Origin: Arthrobacter crystallopoietes
Lineage (GTDB): Bacteria; Actinomycetota; Actinomycetes; Actinomycetales; Micrococcaceae
Length of the DNA: 64,000 bases
Direction of reading: 5' to 3'
Assembly (NCBI RefSeq): GCF_017603825.1
Contig: NZ_CP072014.1
Span: 1,984,001 to 2,048,000 of the forward strand
In this document: positions 54,951-63,574 of the stretch, one piece after another
Numbering within the stretch: the stretch's first letter is position 1
How the letters are laid out: each line of letters opens with the position of its first letter
Translations under genes and position numbers: made by a program
The notes under the pieces: generated by a model
What the model saw: only the letters and a program-made list of their open reading frames with translations
What the model was told of the DNA's origin: nothing
Database searches by the model: none

Positions 54951-56456
54951 TCAGCACCCAAGCTGCCGGAATTTCTCCCAGCGTCGCTCCACGCGTTCGG
55001 CCATGGGGATGCTGGCGGCGGCGCACAGTTCATATTCGATAGCACGCGCCATCCGACGGCAGAAGTCCTTCGGTTCGACCGCGGCATCGGGGCGTTCGTC
55101 CACGATATGGTCCACCAAGCCATTGCCGTACAAGGAAGTAACGTTGACTCCTTGCTGAACCGAGATTGACGGCGCGTATTCGGTGGTGCGGTGCAGGATG
55201 GCGCTGGCGCCTTCGGGCGGCAGCGGCGACAGCCAGGCATGGTGGGCGGCGATGACCCGGTCCGCTGGCAACAAGGCGAGGGCGCCGCCGCCGGCACCCT
55301 GGCCGAGCAGTACCGATACGCTGGGGGATTGCAGTCCGACCAGATCCTGCAGCGATCGGGCGATTTCTCCAGCCAGTCCGCCTTCCTCTGCTTCTTTGGA
55401 CAGGGCGGCGCCTGCGGTATCGATGACCGTCAGCAGGGGCAGGCCGAGCTCTTCGGCCAGCTTCATGCCTCGGCGGGCCTCGCGCAGCGATCCCGGTCCC
55501 ATGGCGGGAGCGCTCGGATCCCGCGGTCGTTCGTGGCCGAGCACCACGCACGACTGTCCGCCAAAGCGGGCCAGCGCGAGCAACAGTCCGGGGTCGTTCT
55601 CGCCCTGTCCCGTCCCATTCAGCGGTAATGCATCATCAGCGCCTGCAGCCAGCAACCAGCGCAGGTCCGGCCGGCGGGAGTTCCGGGAGATTTGGATCGA
55701 TGTCCAGGCGTCTGCGCCGGCGGGCCGCGTTTCAAGGGTTTCCGGCTCCGGAACAGGATCGACCGATCCCGGCAGCAGGATGTTCAACGCCCGGTCCAGG
55801 ATTTCCGCTAGTTCCTGCGGCGGAGCGACCGCGTCGATCAGCCCCTTGTGGAAGAGGTTTTCGGAAACCTGCACGCCTGCCGGGAACGGTTCGCCGTTCA
55901 GCGCCTCGAATACCCGAGGACCGAGGAACCCGAGGAGCGCACCCGGCTCGGCGACTGTCACATGGCCCAGTGAGCCCCAGGACGCCATCACCCCTCCCGT
56001 GGTGGGGTGGCGTAGATAGACCAGGTAGGGCAAGCCTTCCTGCCGATGGCGGTGCACCGCCGCCGTGATCTTGACCATCGCGAGGAAAGCGAGAGTTCCT
56101 TCCTGCATGCGGGTGCCTCCGGAGGCAGGGCCGGCGAGCAGCGGAAGACGTTCAGCCGTGGCCCGTTCCATCGCGGCGGTGATTCGCTCCGCGGCGGCTT
56201 GCCCGATCGAGCCGGCCAGGAAGGTGAACTCCGAGACGATCACGGCCACCCGCCGGCCACGGATCAGCCCCTCCCCGGTCAGGATGGACTCGTCCGTTCC
56301 GCTCTTCCGGGCGGCGGCATCCAGTTCCTGTCGGTATTTCCCGTCCGCCGCAGGTTGCGCCGGCGGTGTATCCCAGGATCTGAAGGAGCCCGGATCCAAA
56401 ACGGTGTCAAGAAGTTCGACGGCGTTCAGGTGGCGTGCCTGTTGCAACGTCTGCAT
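54951..56456 (-). CDS. Fused AccD-AccA-like carboxyltransferase
   Basis: This 501-aa protein joins an AccD-like crotonase-fold half (residues about 25-240: VIVSEFTFLAGSIGQAAAERI, SGGTRMQEGTLAFLAMVKI, HPTTGGVMASWGSLGHV) to an AccA-like half (about 260-500: VIDTAGAALSKEAEEGG, VLLGQGAGGGALALLPADRVIA). The N-terminal zinc ribbon of bacterial AccD is missing. It may act as the carboxyltransferase of a malonyl-CoA decarboxylase, like MdcD-MdcE of malonate decarboxylase, or as acetyl-CoA carboxylase with BCCP made elsewhere. The start lies 1 nt past the CoA-transferase stop, so translation is coupled. Confidence 0.82.
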   Translation of the reverse strand: MQTLQQARHLNAVELLDTVLDPGSFRSWDTPPAQPAADGKYRQELDAAARKSGTDESILTGEGLIRGRRVAVIVSEFTFLAGSIGQAAAERITAAMERATAERLPLLAGPASGGTRMQEGTLAFLAMVKITAAVHRHRQEGLPYLVYLRHPTTGGVMASWGSLGHVTVAEPGALLGFLGPRVFEALNGEPFPAGVQVSENLFHKGLIDAVAPPQELAEILDRALNILLPGSVDPVPEPETLETRPAGADAWTSIQISRNSRRPDLRWLLAAGADDALPLNGTGQGENDPGLLLALARFGGQSCVVLGHERPRDPSAPAMGPGSLREARRGMKLAEELGLPLLTVIDTAGAALSKEAEEGGLAGEIARSLQDLVGLQSPSVSVLLGQGAGGGALALLPADRVIAAHHAWLSPLPPEGASAILHRTTEYAPSISVQQGVNVTSLYGNGLVDHIVDERPDAAVEPKDFCRRMARAIEYELCAAASIPMAERVERRWEKFRQLGC

Positions 56457-56457
56457 C

Positions 56458-57693
56458 TCAATTCGCCTCTTCTTCGCCGGCGAGCCAGGCCCGGATAGTT
56501 TTACCGTCTGCATCCAGCATCGGTGGGGCCTGATGGGTCCTGCGGGTGGTTTCCTCGGCGCTGGCCGGGTTGAAGAACCGCAGCGGCGGTCCCGGAAGAG
56601 TCACCTTGCCCAGGACCTGATGCTCGACGTCGACGAGCAGGCCTTGGGACTTGACCTGGTCCCAGGCGTAGACCTCGTCCAGGCTGCGCACCTTGCCCGC
56701 AGGGATCCCGGCGTCGTCCAGTTTCTTCAGCAACGTTGCCGCGTCATAGGTGGCGAAAGCGCCTTCCACCTCCTGGATGAGGAGGGACCTGTTGTTGACC
56801 CGGTCCGCGTTGGTGGCGAATTCCGGGCGCGAGCCGTCGACATCGAAGGCTTTGCTGAAAGCGGCCCACAGTTTTTCGCTGCCCACACTGATCTGGACCT
56901 TGCCGCCACGGCAACTGAACAATCCGTAGGGTGCGATGGAGGGGTGGTGGTTGCCTTGCGCCTGGGGCACTTCTCCGGCCACCGTGGCCCGGGTGCCTTG
57001 GAAAGCATGGACTCCCACCATCGCCGCGAGCAAGGACGTGCGGACCACCTGTCCGCGTCCGGTACGTTCGCGTTCCATCAGAGCGGCCAGCGCGCCGTAG
57101 GCACCGTACATACCGGAGAGCAGATCCGCGATCGGTACGCCCACGCGCTGCGGGTCATCTGGTCCGGAGCCGGTCAGGGACATCAGGCCGGCTTCGCCCT
57201 GCAGGATCTGGTCGTAGCCACTGCGGTGCGACTCAGGGCCGTCGTGCCCGAACCCGGTAATCGAGAGGATCACCAGTCCGGGGTTGCGTTCGTGCAGCCG
57301 GGCGGCGTCGAAGCCCAGCCGGTCGAGTACGCCTGGGCGGAAGTTTTCGATCAGCACGTCCGCACGCCGGATGAGTTCGGTGAGGACTTCTTTGCCGTCG
57401 TCGCTCTTCAGGTCCAGTGCAATGGATTCCTTGTTCCGATTACAGGACAGAAAGTACGTGGCCTGTGCGTTATCCTCCGGTCCGACGAAGGGCGGGCCCC
57501 AGCCGCGGGTGTCATCCCCGTGGCCCGGGTTCTCCACTTTGATGACGCGGGCGCCCAGATCGGCCATCATCATGCCGGCATGCGGGCCCGCCAGTGCACG
57601 GCTGAGGTCAACTACGGTAAATCCAGTCAGTGGCCCCGCCGTTTCGGTTGCGTCCAGGGATGTCCCGGTGCGATGGTCGGTTGCAATGCTCAT
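56458..57693 (-). CDS. Class III (CaiB/BaiF) CoA-transferase
   Basis: This 411-aa enzyme has family markers FTVVDLSRALAGPHAGMMMADLGARVIKVENPGHGDDTRGWGPP, then VLIENFRPGVLDRLGF and the catalytic-Asp segment SGYDQILQGEAGLMSLTG. Such enzymes move CoA between carboxylic acids, for example malonate, succinate, oxalate or carnitine. AAAGGAATCGAT precedes the ATG. It is located between the MatC carrier and the AccDA gene, so malonate (as malonyl-CoA) is the simplest substrate guess. Confidence 0.9.
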   Translation of the reverse strand: MSIATDHRTGTSLDATETAGPLTGFTVVDLSRALAGPHAGMMMADLGARVIKVENPGHGDDTRGWGPPFVGPEDNAQATYFLSCNRNKESIALDLKSDDGKEVLTELIRRADVLIENFRPGVLDRLGFDAARLHERNPGLVILSITGFGHDGPESHRSGYDQILQGEAGLMSLTGSGPDDPQRVGVPIADLLSGMYGAYGALAALMERERTGRGQVVRTSLLAAMVGVHAFQGTRATVAGEVPQAQGNHHPSIAPYGLFSCRGGKVQISVGSEKLWAAFSKAFDVDGSRPEFATNADRVNNRSLLIQEVEGAFATYDAATLLKKLDDAGIPAGKVRSLDEVYAWDQVKSQGLLVDVEHQVLGKVTLPGPPLRFFNPASAEETTRRTHQAPPMLDADGKTIRAWLAGEEEAN

Positions 57694-57736
57694 ATCGATT
57701 CCTTTGGTGTGGATCTGCAGTTGGAGGGTCGGCGGG

Positions 57737-59095
57737 TCACAGCCAGCCGGGCAGTACCAAGGTCAACCAGGCCAGGACGGGCCCGGCCACCACGACGATG
57801 CCGCCGTAGCCCAGGATCTGCTTGTAGAAACGGTCTTTGTCGGTGCCTTCCGGTGCGTTGGCCAGCACCAGGGCTCCGTTGGTTGAGAACGGCGAGACGT
57901 CGACAATCGTGGAGGCGACTGCCAGGGCGCAGACCACGCCGACGGCGCTGATCTCGCCGGAGTCGAGGAACGGGATGGCCAGCGGGATCAGTGCGGCCAG
58001 GATGGCCGTGGAGGAGGCAAAGGCGGAGACGACGGCACCGATGTAGCAGATCAGCAACGCAGCCAGCAGCGGAACACCCAGGTTGGCGACGCCGTCCGAA
58101 ACGTAGTCGATTGTGCCGGCTTCTTGCAGCACGCCGACGAAGGTCAGCATGCCGCAGATCAGCAGTACGGTTGACCAGCTGATCTTGTTGACAGCGCCTT
58201 TCTGGGCCTTCGGTGACACGAGCGCGAGGACCACGGCGATGGTGATGGAGACGAATCCGACGTCGACTTTGAAGCCCAGGGCCACGACGGCGAGTACGAT
58301 CAGGCCTGCAATGGTCAGCAGCTGCGGCAGGCGCTCGCCGGACGGCTTGGAGGAGCCGTCGCCTGCAGGATCCCGTGGCCCATAGGTGCCGCTGCCGGCT
58401 CCCTTGAATGTGACGTCGCTGGCCCTGTTGCCGACGCTCACAGACATCCGTGCCTCAGCTACCTGCTCGACGAACTGTCCCACCCTTGTCATGGACAGGC
58501 TGCGGCCACCGAGCACGAGGAAGAGCACCAAAGCAATCACCAGGTTGAAAGCGAAGCTCGTCAGGAACAGGGCTGTGGGGCTGAAGGCAAAGCCGGCGTC
58601 CGTAATGAGCCCGTTGACGATAACCCCGTAGACGGCAATGGGGGAGAAGCCTCCGGCCTGCGCGCCATGGACTACCAGCATGCCCATCATGAGCGGGTTG
58701 ATCTTGTATTTGGCAGCGAAGCCGAGAGCGATCGGGGCCATAATGGCCACCGCAGCAGGGCCCAGCGCGCCGACCGCTGTGATCGCGGCCGTGATGATGA
58801 ACATGACCCACGGGATGAGGGCAATTCTGTTGTCGACGAGCTTCACTGCCCGACTGATCAACAAATCGATGGTGCCGTTGTTCTGCGCAATAGCGAACAG
58901 GTAGGTGACGCCTACCAGCGTCAGGAAAAGGCCGCCGGGGAAGTTGGCCAAAATGGTGTCGGTGTCCATCCCCAGGAAGACGGCTCCGAGCAGAAAGGCG
59001 CCGACGAAGGCGAGTGCGCCCATGTTGATGGGCAGGACCGTGGCGATCAGGAACATCGCCGCCAGAACGATGATTGATAAGACGGGAGCGGACAT
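57737..59095 (-). CDS. MatC-type dicarboxylate (malonate) carrier
   Basis: This 452-aa membrane protein has about eleven helices. The N-terminal region matches the MatC_N family: PVLSIIVLAAMFLIATVLPINMGALAFVGAFLLG, then VGALGPAAVAIMAPIALGFAAKYKINPLMMGMLVVHGAQAGGFSPIAVYG. MatC of rhizobia imports malonate. It also resembles the ion-transporter superfamily (arsenite/Na carriers). The ATG at 59095 has GGAGG upstream. It is first in the operon with CoA-transferase and AccDA genes and divergent from a GntR regulator. Confidence 0.88.
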   Translation of the reverse strand: MSAPVLSIIVLAAMFLIATVLPINMGALAFVGAFLLGAVFLGMDTDTILANFPGGLFLTLVGVTYLFAIAQNNGTIDLLISRAVKLVDNRIALIPWVMFIITAAITAVGALGPAAVAIMAPIALGFAAKYKINPLMMGMLVVHGAQAGGFSPIAVYGVIVNGLITDAGFAFSPTALFLTSFAFNLVIALVLFLVLGGRSLSMTRVGQFVEQVAEARMSVSVGNRASDVTFKGAGSGTYGPRDPAGDGSSKPSGERLPQLLTIAGLIVLAVVALGFKVDVGFVSITIAVVLALVSPKAQKGAVNKISWSTVLLICGMLTFVGVLQEAGTIDYVSDGVANLGVPLLAALLICYIGAVVSAFASSTAILAALIPLAIPFLDSGEISAVGVVCALAVASTIVDVSPFSTNGALVLANAPEGTDKDRFYKQILGYGGIVVVAGPVLAWLTLVLPGWL

Positions 59096-59130
59096 CGGCG
59101 TTCCTCCAGAAGATTTAATAGTGAAGTGGG

Positions 59131-59146
59131 TCACTGGCTCACTGGC
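59131..59146. repeat. 8-bp tandem repeat in the matC/GntR intergenic region
   Basis: TCACTGGC occurs twice in direct succession. On the minus strand it covers the expected -35 of a promoter whose -10 may be TATTAA. It could be the GntR binding region. Confidence 0.35.
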
Positions 59147-59219
59147 CTAGCCTCCTAGACACTGAGTCTCTTGTCAATAGGTGTACTGTGGAGGCAATTC
59201 CGATGAGGGGAGGAACGGT

Positions 59220-59918
59220 ATGGCTGGAAAGCCTGCTTCACTCTTGGGCCGCGTGGCTCGGCCAAGGCTCTATGAGCAGTTGATGAAGCAAATCCTGAGT
59301 TACGTTGAGTCCGAGCAGTTGGGGCCGGGTGATCACCTTCCGGCTGAGCGTGACTTGGCTGAACAGCTCGGAGTCTCGCGAGCCACCCTGGCGCAGGCGC
59401 TCGTGGCTCTGGAGGTACTCGGCGTGATCAGCGTCCAGCACGGCACGGGCGCGGTGCTGGTCTACCGGCCCAGCATTGCCACCGTGCTCCGGGACTTACG
59501 TGAGCATCAGAACCGCCTGCCGGAAATCGTTGAAGCGCGCAGCACCCTGGAGGTGAAGCTTGCCGCCTTAGCAGCAACGAGACGGACGGACGAAGATCTG
59601 GCCGGCATTGAGAAAGCCCTGAGCGTCATGGAAGACGAAGTCGGCAAGGGCGACCGGGGCGCCCACGGAGATGAGCTTTTCCACCAGGCAGTCACGGAGG
59701 CCGCGCACTCGCCGGTGCTTGCGCAGCTGATGACCTTCATCGCCGAAATGGTCCTCGAAACCCGCCTTGAATCATTGGGGCAGCCTGGCCGCCCTGAGCA
59801 GTCGTTGGCATCCCACCGCAAGATCGCCGATGCCATCCGGGCCCAGGACCCGGATCTGGCCGCTGCAGCGATGTTGTCCCATATCGAACTGGTCTCGGAT
59901 GTAGCCCTGCTCAAGTAA
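59220..59918 (+). CDS. GntR/FadR-family transcriptional regulator
   Basis: This 232-aa protein has a winged-helix domain (LYEQLMKQILSYVESEQLGPGDHLPAERDLAEQLGVSRATLAQAL) and an FCD domain (EARSTLEVKLAALAATRRTDEDLAGI, DELFHQAVTEAAHSPVL, SHRKIADAI). FCD ligands are often organic acids, which agrees with a dicarboxylate operon. The ATG at 59220 has GGAGG six nt upstream. It is divergent from matC (124 nt between starts) and presumably represses it until malonate or a related acid is present. Confidence 0.92.
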   Translation: MAGKPASLLGRVARPRLYEQLMKQILSYVESEQLGPGDHLPAERDLAEQLGVSRATLAQALVALEVLGVISVQHGTGAVLVYRPSIATVLRDLREHQNRLPEIVEARSTLEVKLAALAATRRTDEDLAGIEKALSVMEDEVGKGDRGAHGDELFHQAVTEAAHSPVLAQLMTFIAEMVLETRLESLGQPGRPEQSLASHRKIADAIRAQDPDLAAAAMLSHIELVSDVALLK

Positions 59919-59989: not shown

Positions 59990-60898
59990 TCAGTGCAGGT
60001 CGAACGCAGGCGGTTCGAAGATCCACGGCTCGGTAGGCAGCTGACCGGGCGAGAACGCCTTGAGTGCCTGCTCCAGCGGCCCGGCCGGGAGGCCGACCGA
60101 ACTCAGGACCATGTCCCGCACACTGTCCGGACCAATCCCGGCCAGGGCGAGAGTGCGCAGGGAAATGGCGCCGTCGCGCTTGGCGATCCGGCGGTGATGG
60201 GTATTCAACACCAGCGGCACATGGGCATATTGGACTGGCGTCAGACCAAGCAGGGACGCCAGGTAGGCCTGCCGGGGCGTGGAACTGAGCAGGTCATCGC
60301 CGCGGACCACCTGGTCGATGCCCTGCTCCGAGTCGTCGACGACGACGGCGAGGTTGTAGGCCGGCACGCCATCGTTGCGCAGCAGCACCAGGTCGTCGAC
60401 GACGCCGGTGTACTCGCCGTGCAACCGGTCCGTCACGGTGTATTCGGTGACTCCGGCCCGCAGCCGGAGGGCAGCGGGCCGTTCCTGCCGCCGTCGTTCG
60501 CGTTCTGAATCACTGAGGTTCCGGCAGGTTCCGGGGTAGGCGCCGGACGGGGCGTGCGGAGCGCTGGGGGCTTCGGCGATCTCCCGGCGGGTGCAGAAGC
60601 ATTCGTAGACCAGGCCTGCGTCGGCCAGGGCGGTGATGGACGCGCGGTAGAGGGGGAAGCGGTCCGTCTGGCTGAGCACGTTGCCGTCCCACGTAAGCCC
60701 GATGGCGGCCAGATCCTCCAGCACTTTGTCTTCCGCCCCGGCGCGGGCGCGGTCCAGATCCTCGATCCGCAACAGAAAATCGCGGCCGGTGCTGCGGGCG
60801 AAAAGCCAGGCGAGGATGGCGGTGCGCAGGTTTCCCACATGCAGTTCGCCCGAGGGGCTGGGGGCGAAGCGGCCGGCTCCGGCATCGATAGGAGGCAC
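59990..60898 (-). CDS. gluQ: Glutamyl-Q tRNA(Asp) synthetase
   Basis: This 302-aa truncated GluRS paralogue has HIGH-like PSGELHVGNLRTAIL, zinc ligands CFCTRRE with YPGTC, KMSKS-like IAKRDGAIS and catalytic region LLRNDGVPAYNLAVVVDDSEQGIDQVVRGDDLL. It lacks the C-terminal anticodon domain, as expected for GluQRS. The enzyme attaches glutamate to queuosine-34 of tRNA(Asp). It starts 9 nt after the LLM oxidoreductase stop and may share the TPP-riboswitch transcript. Confidence 0.92.
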   Translation of the reverse strand: MPPIDAGAGRFAPSPSGELHVGNLRTAILAWLFARSTGRDFLLRIEDLDRARAGAEDKVLEDLAAIGLTWDGNVLSQTDRFPLYRASITALADAGLVYECFCTRREIAEAPSAPHAPSGAYPGTCRNLSDSERERRRQERPAALRLRAGVTEYTVTDRLHGEYTGVVDDLVLLRNDGVPAYNLAVVVDDSEQGIDQVVRGDDLLSSTPRQAYLASLLGLTPVQYAHVPLVLNTHHRRIAKRDGAISLRTLALAGIGPDSVRDMVLSSVGLPAGPLEQALKAFSPGQLPTEPWIFEPPAFDLH

Positions 60899-60907
60899 GG
60901 GTCCAGT

Positions 60908-62248
60908 CTATAAAGCGGAGCCGGCGGTTTCTGCCCTTCCTCTAGCCGCGGCAGCCGGACGGTCCAGTCCCAGATGCTCGCGCAGCGTGCTGCCGGTGTA
61001 GGAGGTGCGGAACAGCCCCCTGCGCTGCAGCACCGGAACGACGCGGTCCACGAACTCGTCCAGGGAGTCCGGCAGCAGCGGCGGCATCAGGTTGAATCCG
61101 TCCGCGCCGCCGGAGGTGAACCACAGCTCGATCTGGTCCGCCACCTGTTCGGGCGTGCCGGCCATGGTGCAGTGTCCGCCGCCGGCCGCGAGCCTGCCGA
61201 GCAGTTGGCGCACGGTCGGCTTTTCGGCGTCGATAATCCGCAGGATGGTGGTGTAGCGGCCCTGCGGGCCGGTGAATTCCGACGCCGGCGGCAAGCTGGG
61301 CACGGGAGCGTCCAGCTCCCAGCCGCTGCAGTCCTGCTGGATGAAGGTGCCCAGCTGGGCCAGGGAATGTTCCGTGGGCAGCAATGCATCGGTTTCCGCC
61401 TGCTTGGCCTTGGCTTCCGCCGTTGTTGTCCCGAGGTAGGTCACCAGGCCGGGCATGACGGCGACCTTGTCCGGGTTCCGTCCGGCGGCGGCGATCCGGC
61501 GCTTCACATCCGCGTAGTAGGCCTGCGCGTTGGCCAGATCGTAGGCGACGGCATAGATGCCTTCGGCATAACGGGCGGCGAGGTTGCGTCCCTGCTCCGA
61601 GGCGCCGGCCTGGAATAGCACGGGCCTGCCCTGCGGGGAGCGCGGAACGGTGAGCGGGCCGTCCACCAGAAAGTGCCGTCCCTCATGGTGGAGCGGGAGG
61701 ACTTCGGCCGGATCCGCATAGTAGCCCTGCCGGTCGAGGACGAGCGCGTTGTCGGTCCAGGAATCCCACAGCCGCAGGGCGACGTCGATGAATTCGGCGG
61801 CGCGTTCGTAGCGTTCCTGATGCCCGGGCATGGCCGCCATGCCGTGGTTGCGTGCCTCGGCGTCGAACATCGACGTGACGACGTTCCAGCCGACGCGCCC
61901 GGCGCTGATGTGGTCCAGCGAGGCCAGCATGCGGGCGGCATGGAACGGCGTGTAGAAAGTAGCCGAAACCGTGCTGACCAGGCCGATCCTGCTGGTGGCC
62001 CGGGCCATGGCTGACAGGGCGGTGAGGGGTTCCATGTGCCAGAGTGGACCCGCGCCCAGATTGCCGGTGGAGTGCCCGTCGGCGAAGAAAACGGCGTCGA
62101 ACAGGCCTTGCTCCGCGGTTTGGGCCAACCGCTCGTAGAAGGCGATGTCGCCGAGCTGCTTGATGGGTGACTGCGGCCGGCGCCAGGCTGCGCTGTGGTG
62201 GCCGCAGCCGAACAGGAACGCGTTGAAATGCAGTTGCCGCGCCGCCAC
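60908..62248 (-). CDS. LLM-class FMN-dependent monooxygenase, NtaA/DmoA type
   Basis: This 446-aa enzyme has the NtaA/SnaA/DszA signature: LHFNAFLFGCGHHSAAWRRP at the N-terminus, FDAVFFADGHST, SRIGLVSTVSATFYTPFHAARMLASLDHISAGRVGWNVVTS and PVLFQAGASEQGRNLAARYAEGIY. Members use reduced FMN from a partner to oxidise sulfur or nitrogen compounds. The GTG start overlaps the SDR stop by 1 nt, so the two are coupled. Control by a TPP riboswitch suggests a substrate linked to thiamine, such as a thiazole or pyrimidine fragment, which is inference. Confidence 0.88.
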   Translation of the reverse strand: MAARQLHFNAFLFGCGHHSAAWRRPQSPIKQLGDIAFYERLAQTAEQGLFDAVFFADGHSTGNLGAGPLWHMEPLTALSAMARATSRIGLVSTVSATFYTPFHAARMLASLDHISAGRVGWNVVTSMFDAEARNHGMAAMPGHQERYERAAEFIDVALRLWDSWTDNALVLDRQGYYADPAEVLPLHHEGRHFLVDGPLTVPRSPQGRPVLFQAGASEQGRNLAARYAEGIYAVAYDLANAQAYYADVKRRIAAAGRNPDKVAVMPGLVTYLGTTTAEAKAKQAETDALLPTEHSLAQLGTFIQQDCSGWELDAPVPSLPPASEFTGPQGRYTTILRIIDAEKPTVRQLLGRLAAGGGHCTMAGTPEQVADQIELWFTSGGADGFNLMPPLLPDSLDEFVDRVVPVLQRRGLFRTSYTGSTLREHLGLDRPAAAARGRAETAGSAL

Positions 62249-63012
62249 TAGTTCATCACCAGTCCGCCGTCGACCATCAGGTTCTGTCCGGTCACCGAGC
62301 GGGCCCAGGGCGACGCGAAGAACAATACCGCGTCGGCGAGTTCTTCCGGAGTCGTTACTCTGCGCAGCGGAGTGGAGGCGGCGATCAGGTCGAAGACCTC
62401 ATCCGGGGTGGCCGCGCTGGCATCGGTGGTGCGGAGCAATCCGCCGGAGACCATGTTGACGGTGACGTTGTGCTGGCCCAGGTCCGCCGCCAGCGTCCGG
62501 GTCAGCGAGAGCAGGGCCGCCTTGGCCGCGGTGTAGTCGTGGTAGGGAACTACCGGATTCTGGAAGAGGTTGGTGCCGATGTTAATGATCCGGCCAAACC
62601 GGCGGCCGCGCATTCCGGGAAGTGCCTGCTGAGCGGTGTTCAGCGCGCCGCGCACGCTGCCGGAAAACTGGGTTTCGAACTCGGACCAGGAAATATCGGC
62701 GGCGCTGGAGCGGGCATCCCCGTTGAAGGAGAAATCCGCCAGCGCGTTGTTGACCACCGTAGTCACTGCGCCACCAAAATGGGCTTCGGCACGGCTGAAC
62801 AGCTCCGCCACCTGCCCGGCATCGGTGACGTCCGCCTGCATAGCCACGGCCTGTTCCGGCCCGAACTTGGCGGCCAGCTCCTCCGCGGCGGAGCCGCTGT
62901 TGCGGTAATTGATGATTACCCGGGCGCCGGCTTCCGCGAAGGCTGCGACGATCCGGGCGCCGAGGCCACGGCCGCCGCCGGTTACCAGTACGGTTTGTTC
63001 TGCGAGCTGCAT
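62248..63012 (-). CDS. Short-chain dehydrogenase/reductase under TPP riboswitch
   Basis: This 254-aa SDR has NAD(P) motif VTGGGRGLGARI, the Asn region VVNNAL and active site Ser with YxxxK in HDYTAAKAALLSLTRTLAADL. The C-terminus (SVTGQNLMVDGGLVM) is typical of FabG-like members. The last base of its stop is shared with the next start. It lies directly downstream of a TPP riboswitch; I recall that an SDR of this kind has been noted before as thiamine-regulated, but I cannot confirm. The reaction may be a carbonyl reduction in thiamine or precursor metabolism. Confidence 0.87.
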   Translation of the reverse strand: MQLAEQTVLVTGGGRGLGARIVAAFAEAGARVIINYRNSGSAAEELAAKFGPEQAVAMQADVTDAGQVAELFSRAEAHFGGAVTTVVNNALADFSFNGDARSSAADISWSEFETQFSGSVRGALNTAQQALPGMRGRRFGRIINIGTNLFQNPVVPYHDYTAAKAALLSLTRTLAADLGQHNVTVNMVSGGLLRTTDASAATPDEVFDLIAASTPLRRVTTPEELADAVLFFASPWARSVTGQNLMVDGGLVMN

Positions 63013-63038
63013 TGAGGTTCTCCACCTTGATTAAGGCG

Positions 63039-63076
63039 AAAAGATGGGTGCAGCGCACCGCACGGCAGCCGCTGCA
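63039..63076 (-). terminator. Candidate riboswitch expression-platform terminator
   Basis: On the minus strand TGCAGCG pairs with CGCTGCA and is followed by ACCCATCTTTT. It starts 3 nt after the TPP aptamer, so it can compete with or follow aptamer folding and stop transcription when TPP is bound. Confidence 0.6.
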
Positions 63077-63078
63077 TG

Positions 63079-63152
63079 ACATCCCTTCGCTAGTACGAAC
63101 TAGATCAGGTTCAACGGGTTTGCTCTCAGCCCCTCAAGGGGCACCCCGTGTC
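63079..63152 (-). ncRNA. TPP riboswitch (THI element)
   Basis: Read on the minus strand this shows every conserved block of the TPP aptamer: GGGGTGCCC, then GGCTGAGAG, ACCC, GAACCTGATCT, GTACTAGCG and AAGGGATG. CTGAGA (63124-63129) and ACCTGATCT (63102-63110) bind TPP. It lies 66 nt upstream of the SDR start, followed by a terminator-like hairpin. It should switch the SDR/LLM operon off when thiamine is plentiful. Confidence 0.95.
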
Positions 63153-63229
63153 ACTGCCTGCGAGTCTACCTGCGCGAGCCGGCTACTGCAGCAACGCCAC
63201 CTCCAGACGGTCAATGAAGCTCCGGATCG

Positions 63230-63574
63230 TTACGCCCGGTAGTCGAACACCACCTCAGAAGGCGGTCCCTGAGCCAGCATCTCCTTGGTGACCCCATGGA
63301 GCTCCAGAATCCTGTCCTTGAACCAGACGTCGAAAGGCTCCTCGGACGCAGCCAGCTTGCTGAACCCCGCGGAGACACTGTCGCCCTCGTGGAACAAAGC
63401 GGCGAAGTCGCCTTCGGGACTCTGCACCAGGCCGATCACTTCACGGCTGGCTCCCAGGCGCTGCCTGGACTGGGCGAAATCGTCCTTCCGCGGGCCTTTG
63501 ATCTCCTCCACGAAAGCCCTCCACTCCTCGAGCTTCCCGGGCAGGATGGGCACAAACCAGGTAATACATTCCAT
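63230..63574 (-). CDS. Hypothetical protein, possible dimeric barrel
   Basis: This 114-aa protein begins CITWFVPILPGKLEEWRAFVEEIKGP and continues RRQRLGASREVIGLV-like sequence to FDVWFKDRILELHGVTKEML. The opening WFxPILPGKxxEWxxF and the VQSPEGDFAALFHEGD stretch suggest a small alpha/beta-barrel of the ABM/DUF6176 kind, but this is uncertain. The ATG at 63574 has GAAGGAT upstream. It is on the same strand as, and upstream of, the riboswitch operon but separate from it. Confidence 0.65.
   Translation of the reverse strand: MECITWFVPILPGKLEEWRAFVEEIKGPRKDDFAQSRQRLGASREVIGLVQSPEGDFAALFHEGDSVSAGFSKLAASEEPFDVWFKDRILELHGVTKEMLAQGPPSEVVFDYRA

Follow-up and report, generated by a model that had tools for sequence, protein, structure and literature searches.

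The locus and its riboswitch

The stretch of DNA analysed here, called the window in the following, comprises 64,000 nucleotides of the Arthrobacter crystallopoietes genome (contig NZ_CP072014.1, positions 1,984,001 to 2,048,000). Close to its end, on the minus strand, a thiamine pyrophosphate (TPP) riboswitch precedes two genes, one for a short-chain dehydrogenase/reductase (SDR) and one for a luciferase-like flavin monooxygenase (LLM). We propose, with a probability of about 0.5, that the two enzymes form a TPP-repressed module for the salvage of thiamine precursors, most likely on the pyrimidine side, that of hydroxymethylpyrimidine (HMP). The main parts of the locus are:

63065..63158, minus strand: aptamer of the TPP riboswitch (THI element, RF00059), found by Rfam cmscan over the full-length model
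62248..63012, minus strand: SDR gene of the NF006393/PRK08642 family, 254 amino acids, ATG start (open reading frame and NCBIfam)
60908..62248, minus strand: LLM flavin monooxygenase gene of the NtaA/DmoA family TIGR03860, 446 amino acids, GTG start (open reading frame and NCBIfam)

The riboswitch is the sole Rfam match at gathering score within the window. It aligns to the RF00059 model end to end (1-105 of 105) at 63158..63065 on the minus strand, with 74.5 bits against a gathering score of 54.3 (E = 8.1e-13), and a whole-genome RNA search recovers it at the same position. An earlier, sequence-only reading of this DNA had placed an aptamer at 63079-63152; that segment lies inside this minus-strand match, which scores above the Rfam threshold. 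The same reading had described an SDR and an NtaA/DmoA-type LLM sharing one base, which is what we find: the G of the SDR stop codon TAG is the first base of the LLM start codon GTG. Directly upstream of the riboswitch there is an open reading frame of 114 codons (63230-63574) with no Pfam or NCBIfam match.

Between the aptamer and the SDR start codon, and reaching back into the aptamer, the leader contains several predicted elements:

63078..63093, minus strand: 3' end of the aptamer, predicted partner of 63035-63047 in the TPP-free state (anti-sequestor pairing, RNAduplex)
63047..63063, minus strand: short terminator-like hairpin (pattern scan)
63035..63047, minus strand: anti-sequestor partner segment, overlapping the 5' arm of the sequestor (pairing prediction)
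63019..63042, minus strand: predicted sequestor hairpin of 10 pairs, with the Shine-Dalgarno sequence of the SDR gene in its 3' arm (RNA minimum-energy fold)

The pairing of 63078-63093 with 63035-63047 is predicted by RNAduplex at -15.8 kcal/mol (z = -2.0 against shuffles). For comparison, 73 TPP-positive leaders were tried and 56 scored against shuffles of single letters, the other 17 being dropped for leader length (12), for want of a start codon (2) or of a recognisable aptamer end (3). Across the 56 scored leaders the anti-sequestor pairing has a mean z of -2.0; 28 fall below -2 and 28 do not reach that value. In the Shine-Dalgarno region (-14 to -5), 40 of the 56 leaders have six or more of the ten bases paired. 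The fold energy of the sequestor is barely better than that of shuffles (mean z -0.98 over the 56 leaders), and the whole leader of the window does not fold beyond its shuffles (z = -1.11).

The terminator-like hairpin that the sequence-only reading had noticed after the aptamer is present at 63063-63047: a pattern scan of 651 bases lists three sites, two of them this hairpin, against 0.4 in shuffles. Among the leaders compared it recurs, by eye, only in the closest relatives (L109 and L110), whereas a hairpin masking the Shine-Dalgarno sequence, together with its competing helix, recurs more widely. For this reason we consider a terminator less likely as the main switch; the hairpin is probably not the main expression platform, and translational control by TPP looks likelier than termination.

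The two encoded proteins

With 438.9 bits against the NCBIfam model NF006393 (PRK08642; equivalog cut-off 292), the SDR belongs to that family. Residues Thr147, Tyr160 and Lys164, assigned to the catalytic positions from SDR motifs, are invariant in 18 of 18 aligned orthologs; SDRs usually carry a serine where the window protein has Thr147. The structure model is of moderate confidence (pLDDT, the predicted local distance difference test, is 77.3), with segments below 50 that include 149-160. NF006393 is named after 3-oxoacyl-ACP (acyl carrier protein) reductase; the gene context described below speaks for a thiamine role instead.

The LLM scores 537.9 bits against TIGR03860 (cut-off 279.7) and is accordingly a member of the NtaA/DmoA subfamily. 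Its AlphaFold2 model (pLDDT 87.5) is a TIM barrel, for which the nearest solved folds are BdsA, CmoJ and NtaA, with query TM (template modelling) scores of 0.85-0.86 for the best chains and 38-41% identity; riboflavin lyase shares the fold at 31% identity. Judged by identity only, the protein is not an ortholog of NtaA, CmoJ, BdsA or RcaE, the best value being at most 41%. This is below even the roughly 44-51% of the out-group LLMs, which differ from the TPP-linked clade in context and in some fixed residues.

Enzymes of this kind break C-N and C-S bonds. NtaA and riboflavin lyase cut N-CH2 bonds. CmoJ is described as splitting its substrate at a C-S bond into a sulfenic acid and an aldehyde whose oxygen derives from O2 (PMC10863075), and the alkanesulfonate LLMs as yielding an aldehyde and sulfite (PMC8234197). 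Among the open reading frames listed, no reductase gene adjoins the SDR-LLM pair; the remaining genome was not searched for one.

On the same strand, a gene for the tRNA glutamyl-Q(34) synthetase GluQRS (59990-60898) starts 9 bases past the LLM stop codon and may be co-transcribed with the TPP-controlled pair. A GluQRS relative also follows the LLM in another genome (G105).

Conservation and distribution of the pair

Within the Micrococcaceae we surveyed 120 genomes, taking as SDR orthologs matches with E up to 1e-60 and as LLM orthologs those of at least 58% identity; only the best first-look candidates were scored in each genome (14 for LLM and 22 for SDR; 5 and 9 in the order sample used below), and the LLM counts refer to the matches listed. 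Both genes are found in 34 genomes, the SDR alone in one (G079), the LLM alone in none and neither in 85; in a few genomes the LLM ortholog is present as pieces. LLM matches of 51% or less, treated as out-group, occur in many of the genomes, mostly without the SDR.

In all 35 SDR-bearing genomes a TPP element either heads the operon or lies ahead of the SDR itself. Rfam reports it at gathering score in 29 of the 30 SDR loci L039-L068, and elements are also confirmed at the SDR loci of G061, G118, G001, G098 and G092; the riboswitches of L090 and L091 score 59.5 and 59.9 bits with Rfam. In G035 the element heads a thiM-thiE-thiD-SDR-LLM operon. The pair is split in G001, with TPP-SDR-thiM-thiE-thiD in one place and TPP-LLM-VTT-FTHFS in another, and each half has its own element (68.1 and 67.5 bits). 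More generally, the LLM adjoins an SDR, an alcohol dehydrogenase (ADH) or its own TPP element throughout the 34 Micrococcaceae and 6 further order-sample orthologs, two contig-end pieces in G098 excepted.

The genes that follow the LLM behind its own element in G001 encode a VTT-domain protein and formate--tetrahydrofolate ligase (FTHFS; L088, 8431-10698). A formate link there would fit some substrates.

Outside the family, the SDR alignment used as query gave 594 confirmed loci, of which the best 80 were kept as named loci; the counts in this paragraph refer to these 80. TPP elements were detected with a model, R1, derived from 21 elements of which many belong to these same SDR loci, and its E-values are rough. 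An element lies upstream of the SDR in 52 loci; in one of them (L167) it stands at the head of thiM-thiE-thiD-SDR. The LLM gene is directly downstream in 44 of the 50 testable TPP-positive loci, namely 43 by script plus L139, whose LLM match is split in two; L154 and L183 were excluded, their contigs ending within or soon after the SDR. The six TPP-positive loci with no adjacent LLM are L111, L116, L121, L151, L167 and L175. By contrast, the LLM is adjacent in none of the 28 TPP-negative loci, mostly from Xanthomonadales, and in the 10 of these that were scanned with Rfam at gathering score no TPP element was found. The link between the LLM and TPP-controlled SDRs proposed from the window alone extends widely (44/50 against 0/28).

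The arrangement TPP-SDR-LLM is found in Arthrobacter, Rhodococcus, Cryobacterium, Citricoccus and Glutamicibacter, and also in Marinobacter, Oceanimonas, Alcaligenes and Pseudochrobactrum. One apparent member from Bacillota was rejected: the locus, titled Sporosarcina beigongshangi (L122), has 66% G+C, its SDR groups with those of Arthrobacter, and it is probably mislabelled or contaminated, as judged from its sequence; it is counted among the 44. Over 67 loci, the distances between SDRs and those between LLMs correlate (Spearman 0.65; 0 of 500 permutations as high), as expected if the two genes were inherited together.

Some members of the SDR family stand apart. Xanthomonadal SDRs of the same family have neither the element nor the LLM, and a MerR-like open reading frame was seen by eye beside one of them (L133, 7740-8162). 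SDRs of the genus g233 (L253, L254, L230, L236 and L240), 62-69% identical to that of the window, mostly lack a TPP element. Two genomes (G552 and G579) carry one TPP-linked SDR and one second copy, with a possible change of role.

Thiamine gene neighbourhoods

TPP control and linkage to thi genes recur across unrelated genomes and point to a probable role of the pair in thiamine salvage. The SDR or the pair lies alongside thiM, thiE or thiD in L071, L072, L076, L077, L082, L116, L121 and L167, and in L071 and L072 the pair is joined with thiM-thiE-thiD. Other gene orders are TPP-SDR-LLM-TPP-thiD-MFS-thiM-thiE in L077 (MFS, major facilitator superfamily), TPP-thiM-thiE-SDR-LLM in L251 and TPP-SDR-thiM-thiE-thiD in L255. 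In a distant class (L191) we find TPP-thiT-thiamine diphosphokinase-SDR-thiD-thiM, thiD and thiM being assigned by similarity to seeds. The pair stands without any other thi gene next to it in the window genome, as it does at many of the loci.

Transporters are the other recurrent neighbours. Two loci (L112 and L114) have the pair beside thiYXZ-type ABC (ATP-binding cassette) genes with their own TPP element. At 12 proteobacterial loci the pair is divergent from a TPP-controlled gene for a sodium:solute symporter; 11 of these symporters share 58-80% identity with the twelfth, that of L150. The gap between the two divergent elements is under 200 bases at 8 of these loci and 1.4 to 4.1 kb at L150, L156, L163 and L172.

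The surroundings of out-group LLMs, at about 50% identity, are of another kind: one gene lies by ABC permease and NMT1-type binding-protein genes (L098), a second by a TauD gene (L097), and a third locus (L099) has other neighbours. No TPP match was obtained in 20 out-group LLM loci (L202-L221) scanned over about 1.5 kb on each side.

Further along the minus strand of the window (54951-59918), genes for a carboxyltransferase, a class III CoA-transferase and a MatC-like dicarboxylate carrier lie beside a divergent GntR/FCD regulator gene. They look like a set for malonate or dicarboxylate use.

A zinc alcohol dehydrogenase in place of the SDR

A survey of 297 genomes of the order turned up LLM matches of at least 60% in 11, and the SDR is also found in 9 of them. 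The other two, G532 (LLM 69%) and G462 (LLM 63%), gave no SDR match in the genome or in the 14-15 kb around the LLM. In both (loci L247 and L248, respectively) a zinc alcohol dehydrogenase gene (PF08240, PF00107) lies directly upstream, adjoining or overlapping the LLM start. In G532 the two genes stand behind three others of the same orientation, thiO-, thiG- and thiF-like by Pfam (DAO, ThiG and ThiF), and ahead of these three a TPP element scores 53.3 bits, just below the cut-off, with E = 1e-8. That dehydrogenases of two unrelated folds occupy this position suggests an alcohol/carbonyl conversion as the probable partner reaction of the LLM.

The sequence-only reading had held that conservation of the pair elsewhere in the absence of THI elements would speak against it. 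Such conservation is mostly not seen, all 35 SDR-bearing Micrococcaceae being TPP-positive; the exception is the LLM with its zinc ADH in G462.

Gene content and the two halves of thiamine

The window genome, 99.88% complete and in a single contig, gave no ThiC match and no ThiM match. It does have ThiG and a TPP-controlled ThiD-TenA fusion (ThiG and the TenA domain were confirmed by family search), and it carries three TPP elements besides that of the SDR-LLM pair. By eye, we take the genes near these to be the thiD-tenA fusion, a YkoEDC-like ECF (energy-coupling factor) transporter, and thiO-thiG with thiF, and thiE. Judged by its gene content, this organism can make the thiazole, lacks the ThiM phosphorylation of salvaged hydroxyethylthiazole (HET) and lacks the ThiC route to HMP. 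With ThiC and ThiM missing and ThiG and ThiD-TenA present, only the pyrimidine branch would need an outside supply. Many soil and marine bacteria are without ThiC and live on leftovers of the thiamine pyrimidine.

No ThiC match was found in 75 of the 120 Micrococcaceae genomes. The combination of ThiG present with no intact ThiC, which would leave a gap for HMP alone, occurs in 22 of the 35 SDR-bearing genomes and in 21 of the 85 others (Fisher p = 0.00013), a comparison picked after seeing the data and not corrected for phylogeny. Only listed matches with E under 1e-80 were taken as ThiG; weaker ones, to a stretch of about 60 residues, are found in most genomes. In G048, G083, G096 and G684 thiC occurs only as pieces; G048, G083 and G684 (the genome of L112) carry the SDR.

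The sequence-only reading had offered salvage or breakdown of thiazole, pyrimidine or oxidised thiamine without preference. Linkage to thi genes supports a thiamine role in general; the three are not equally likely, the genome context leaning to the pyrimidine half.

Proposed function and alternatives

We infer the substrate of the SDR-LLM module, the order and direction of its reactions and its regulatory response as follows. When TPP is scarce, the leader would expose the ribosome-binding site and both enzymes would be produced jointly. Using O2 and FMNH2 supplied by a reductase encoded elsewhere, the LLM would oxidise the methylene carbon of a (4-amino-2-methylpyrimidin-5-yl)methyl-X compound, in which X may be an amine, pyridinium or thiazolium nitrogen, a thioether or a sulfonate. 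Candidate substrates are the products of thiaminase or sulfite action, damaged thiamines and thiamine analogues. Breakage of the C-N or C-S bond would release the pyrimidine-5-carbaldehyde, which the SDR (the zinc alcohol dehydrogenase in G532 and G462) would reduce to HMP, to be phosphorylated by ThiD and coupled to thiazole phosphate by ThiE. More tentatively, the LLM and its dehydrogenase may be a previously undescribed O2-dependent source of the thiamine pyrimidine by way of HMP aldehyde, most useful in bacteria without ThiC, with the pyrimidine methanesulfonate formed by sulfite or thiaminase adducts as possible substrates.

Several observations weigh against pyrimidine salvage as the common function. 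On the chemical side, the pyrimidine aldehyde intermediate is hypothetical, and cleavage of C-N or C-S bonds under TPP shortage makes sense only if the substrates are not thiamine itself. Other points concern the association of element, SDR and LLM. An independent-pairs test on the SDR tree (which counted L090, L071, L072, L167, L191, L193 and L195 as TPP-negative and L139 as LLM-less) finds two pairs on well-supported branches and is not significant, and the counts are not independent of phylogeny. Family SDRs occur with no TPP element in 28 of the best 80 loci and in 17 of 19 f74/g233 loci (scanned over about 1.5 kb on each side), TPP-positive SDRs with no adjacent LLM also include L076, L189, L190 and L191-L196, and no TPP match was found for the LLM and zinc ADH of G462 in the 15 kb covered. 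As to gene content, the pattern of the window genome, lack of ThiC and ThiM with ThiG present, is not clearly enriched (13/35 SDR-bearing against 19/85 other Micrococcaceae, p = 0.11) and on its own is no evidence. The remaining SDR-bearing genomes fall into four groups: ThiM without ThiC or ThiG (5), only intact ThiC missing (9), all three present (6), and ThiC with ThiG but no ThiM (2). Intact thiC is present in 8 of the 35 against 34 of the 85 SDR-less genomes (p = 0.09). A further 23 genomes were checked, 18 of them with the LLM beside an SDR or ADH; thiC is intact in 9, including 7 of those 18, and a fragment in one. ThiM, finally, is somewhat commoner with the SDR (20/35) than without it (33/85), and its position next to the genes at several loci would suit a thiazole role too.

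This last point leads to the thiazole side, where the LLM and SDR would convert a modified or oxidised hydroxyethylthiazole, such as thiazole acetaldehyde or an S- or N-modified thiazole, to HET for ThiM. Besides the frequency of ThiM, it can call on the genes for ThiM and ThiE that adjoin the pair or the SDR in several genomes, on the sulfur compounds on which LLM relatives often act, and on the out-group genes beside the permease and NMT1-type protein (L098) and TauD (L097). Yet 15 of the 35 SDR-bearing Micrococcaceae, the window genome included, have no ThiM match over the cut-off, so that HET could not be phosphorylated by ThiM there, and all 15 have a strong ThiG (E under 1e-80) and can make thiazole; we hold a thiazole role to be unlikely. 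A little more doubtful still is a division in which only the SDR serves thiamine metabolism, the LLM being an accessory member of the operon with an unrelated substrate, for example in sulfur scavenging. TPP-linked SDRs do occur in thi settings with no adjacent LLM (L116, L121, L167, L191 and L255), and the SDR is without the LLM in 34 of the 78 testable loci among the best 80 of 594. Against this division, the G001 LLM has a TPP riboswitch of its own, that of G532 follows thi genes with the ADH in the place of the SDR, and the 34 + 6 orthologs noted above, the G098 pieces apart, all keep to an SDR, an ADH or a TPP element.

Another alternative is that the module detoxifies or recycles thiamine antimetabolites resembling pyrithiamine or bacimethrin, with HMP recovery incidental. 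Dealkylation of a pyrimidine-CH2-pyridinium is of a type of chemistry known from LLM relatives, and TPP-starved cells would be expected to express importers that might take up such analogues. Control by TPP and linkage to thiD, thiM, thiE and transporters fit nutrition better than defence, and we regard this as improbable. Least probable in our view is an alternative, O2-dependent synthesis of HMP from a common metabolite that stands in for ThiC. It would account for the lack of a ThiC match in the window genome and in G532, G462, G570, G583, G663 and G680 (the other LLM-bearing order-sample genomes checked for ThiC), as well as for the mere pieces of thiC in the SDR-bearing G048 and G083. However, the intact ThiC of 8/35 and 9/23 genomes does not support a pure replacement, several neighbours are salvage kinases and transporters, and no precursor is evident.

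If TPP-controlled oxidative salvage of the pyrimidine is true, a widespread route would add a step to the vitamin B1 economy, and which degraded forms of thiamine are re-usable would become testable. A vitamin-linked LLM branch and the SDR family at present called 3-oxoacyl-ACP reductase would both gain a function. With the SDR exchanged for a zinc ADH, the carbonyl/alcohol step is sharply predicted and can be put to the test. Should the O2-dependent source through HMP aldehyde prove true, an oxygen-requiring branch of vitamin B1 metabolism would be common to Actinomycetota and Pseudomonadota.

Comparison with known systems

In Corynebacterium glutamicum a putative short-chain oxidoreductase gene, cg0825, has a TPP riboswitch leader supported by RNAseq, as in the window; the text on it that we consulted speculates on a thiamine-dependent role and mentions no LLM partner (PMC3890552). 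NF006393 also has a match in the C. glutamicum control genome, which may be cg0825. Rodionov et al. (2002) reportedly listed a FabG-like oxidoreductase gene, oarX, with THI elements; it is a possible counterpart of the window SDR. The main text of PMC3766115 mentions no 'oar', oxidoreductase, monooxygenase or dehydrogenase. A paper that matched TPP riboswitch and monooxygenase, PMC9870897, proved unrelated in the part consulted. In open-access full text no publication came up that connects a TPP riboswitch with an LLM monooxygenase. The sequence-only statement that the two enzymes have no known role in thiamine metabolism was therefore too strong for the SDR, given cg0825 (PMC3890552), and agrees, within the text consulted, with our search as regards the LLM. 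What is known is a TPP switch on an SDR gene; the LLM link and the salvage route we did not find described.

Two characterised LLMs come close in chemistry. Riboflavin lyase RcaE (5w48, 5w4y, 5w4z) shares the fold and cuts an N-CH2 bond of a vitamin; it is 31% identical to the window LLM and catabolic, for riboflavin. To our knowledge it has no SDR partner and no TPP control. The alkylcysteine sulfoxide monooxygenase CmoJ/YtnJ of Bacillus subtilis (6ask, 1tvl, 1yw1) has in common with the window protein the LLM subfamily and the fold, as well as the flavin chemistry and aldehyde release that we propose. It differs in sequence (39-41% identity in structural alignment) and serves cysteine salvage. 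We know of no TPP control of CmoJ/YtnJ.

The closest functional parallel is the salvage of base-degraded thiamin by ThiXYZ, YlmB and TenA, in which HMP is recovered under TPP control from altered thiamine pyrimidines. There too the parts overlap, with thiYXZ-type transporter genes or a TenA domain found near the SDR-LLM pair or in the same genomes. The difference lies in the chemistry: that pathway relies on hydrolases acting by deformylation and deamination, whereas the SDR-LLM module would use O2- and flavin-dependent cleavage followed by a reductase.

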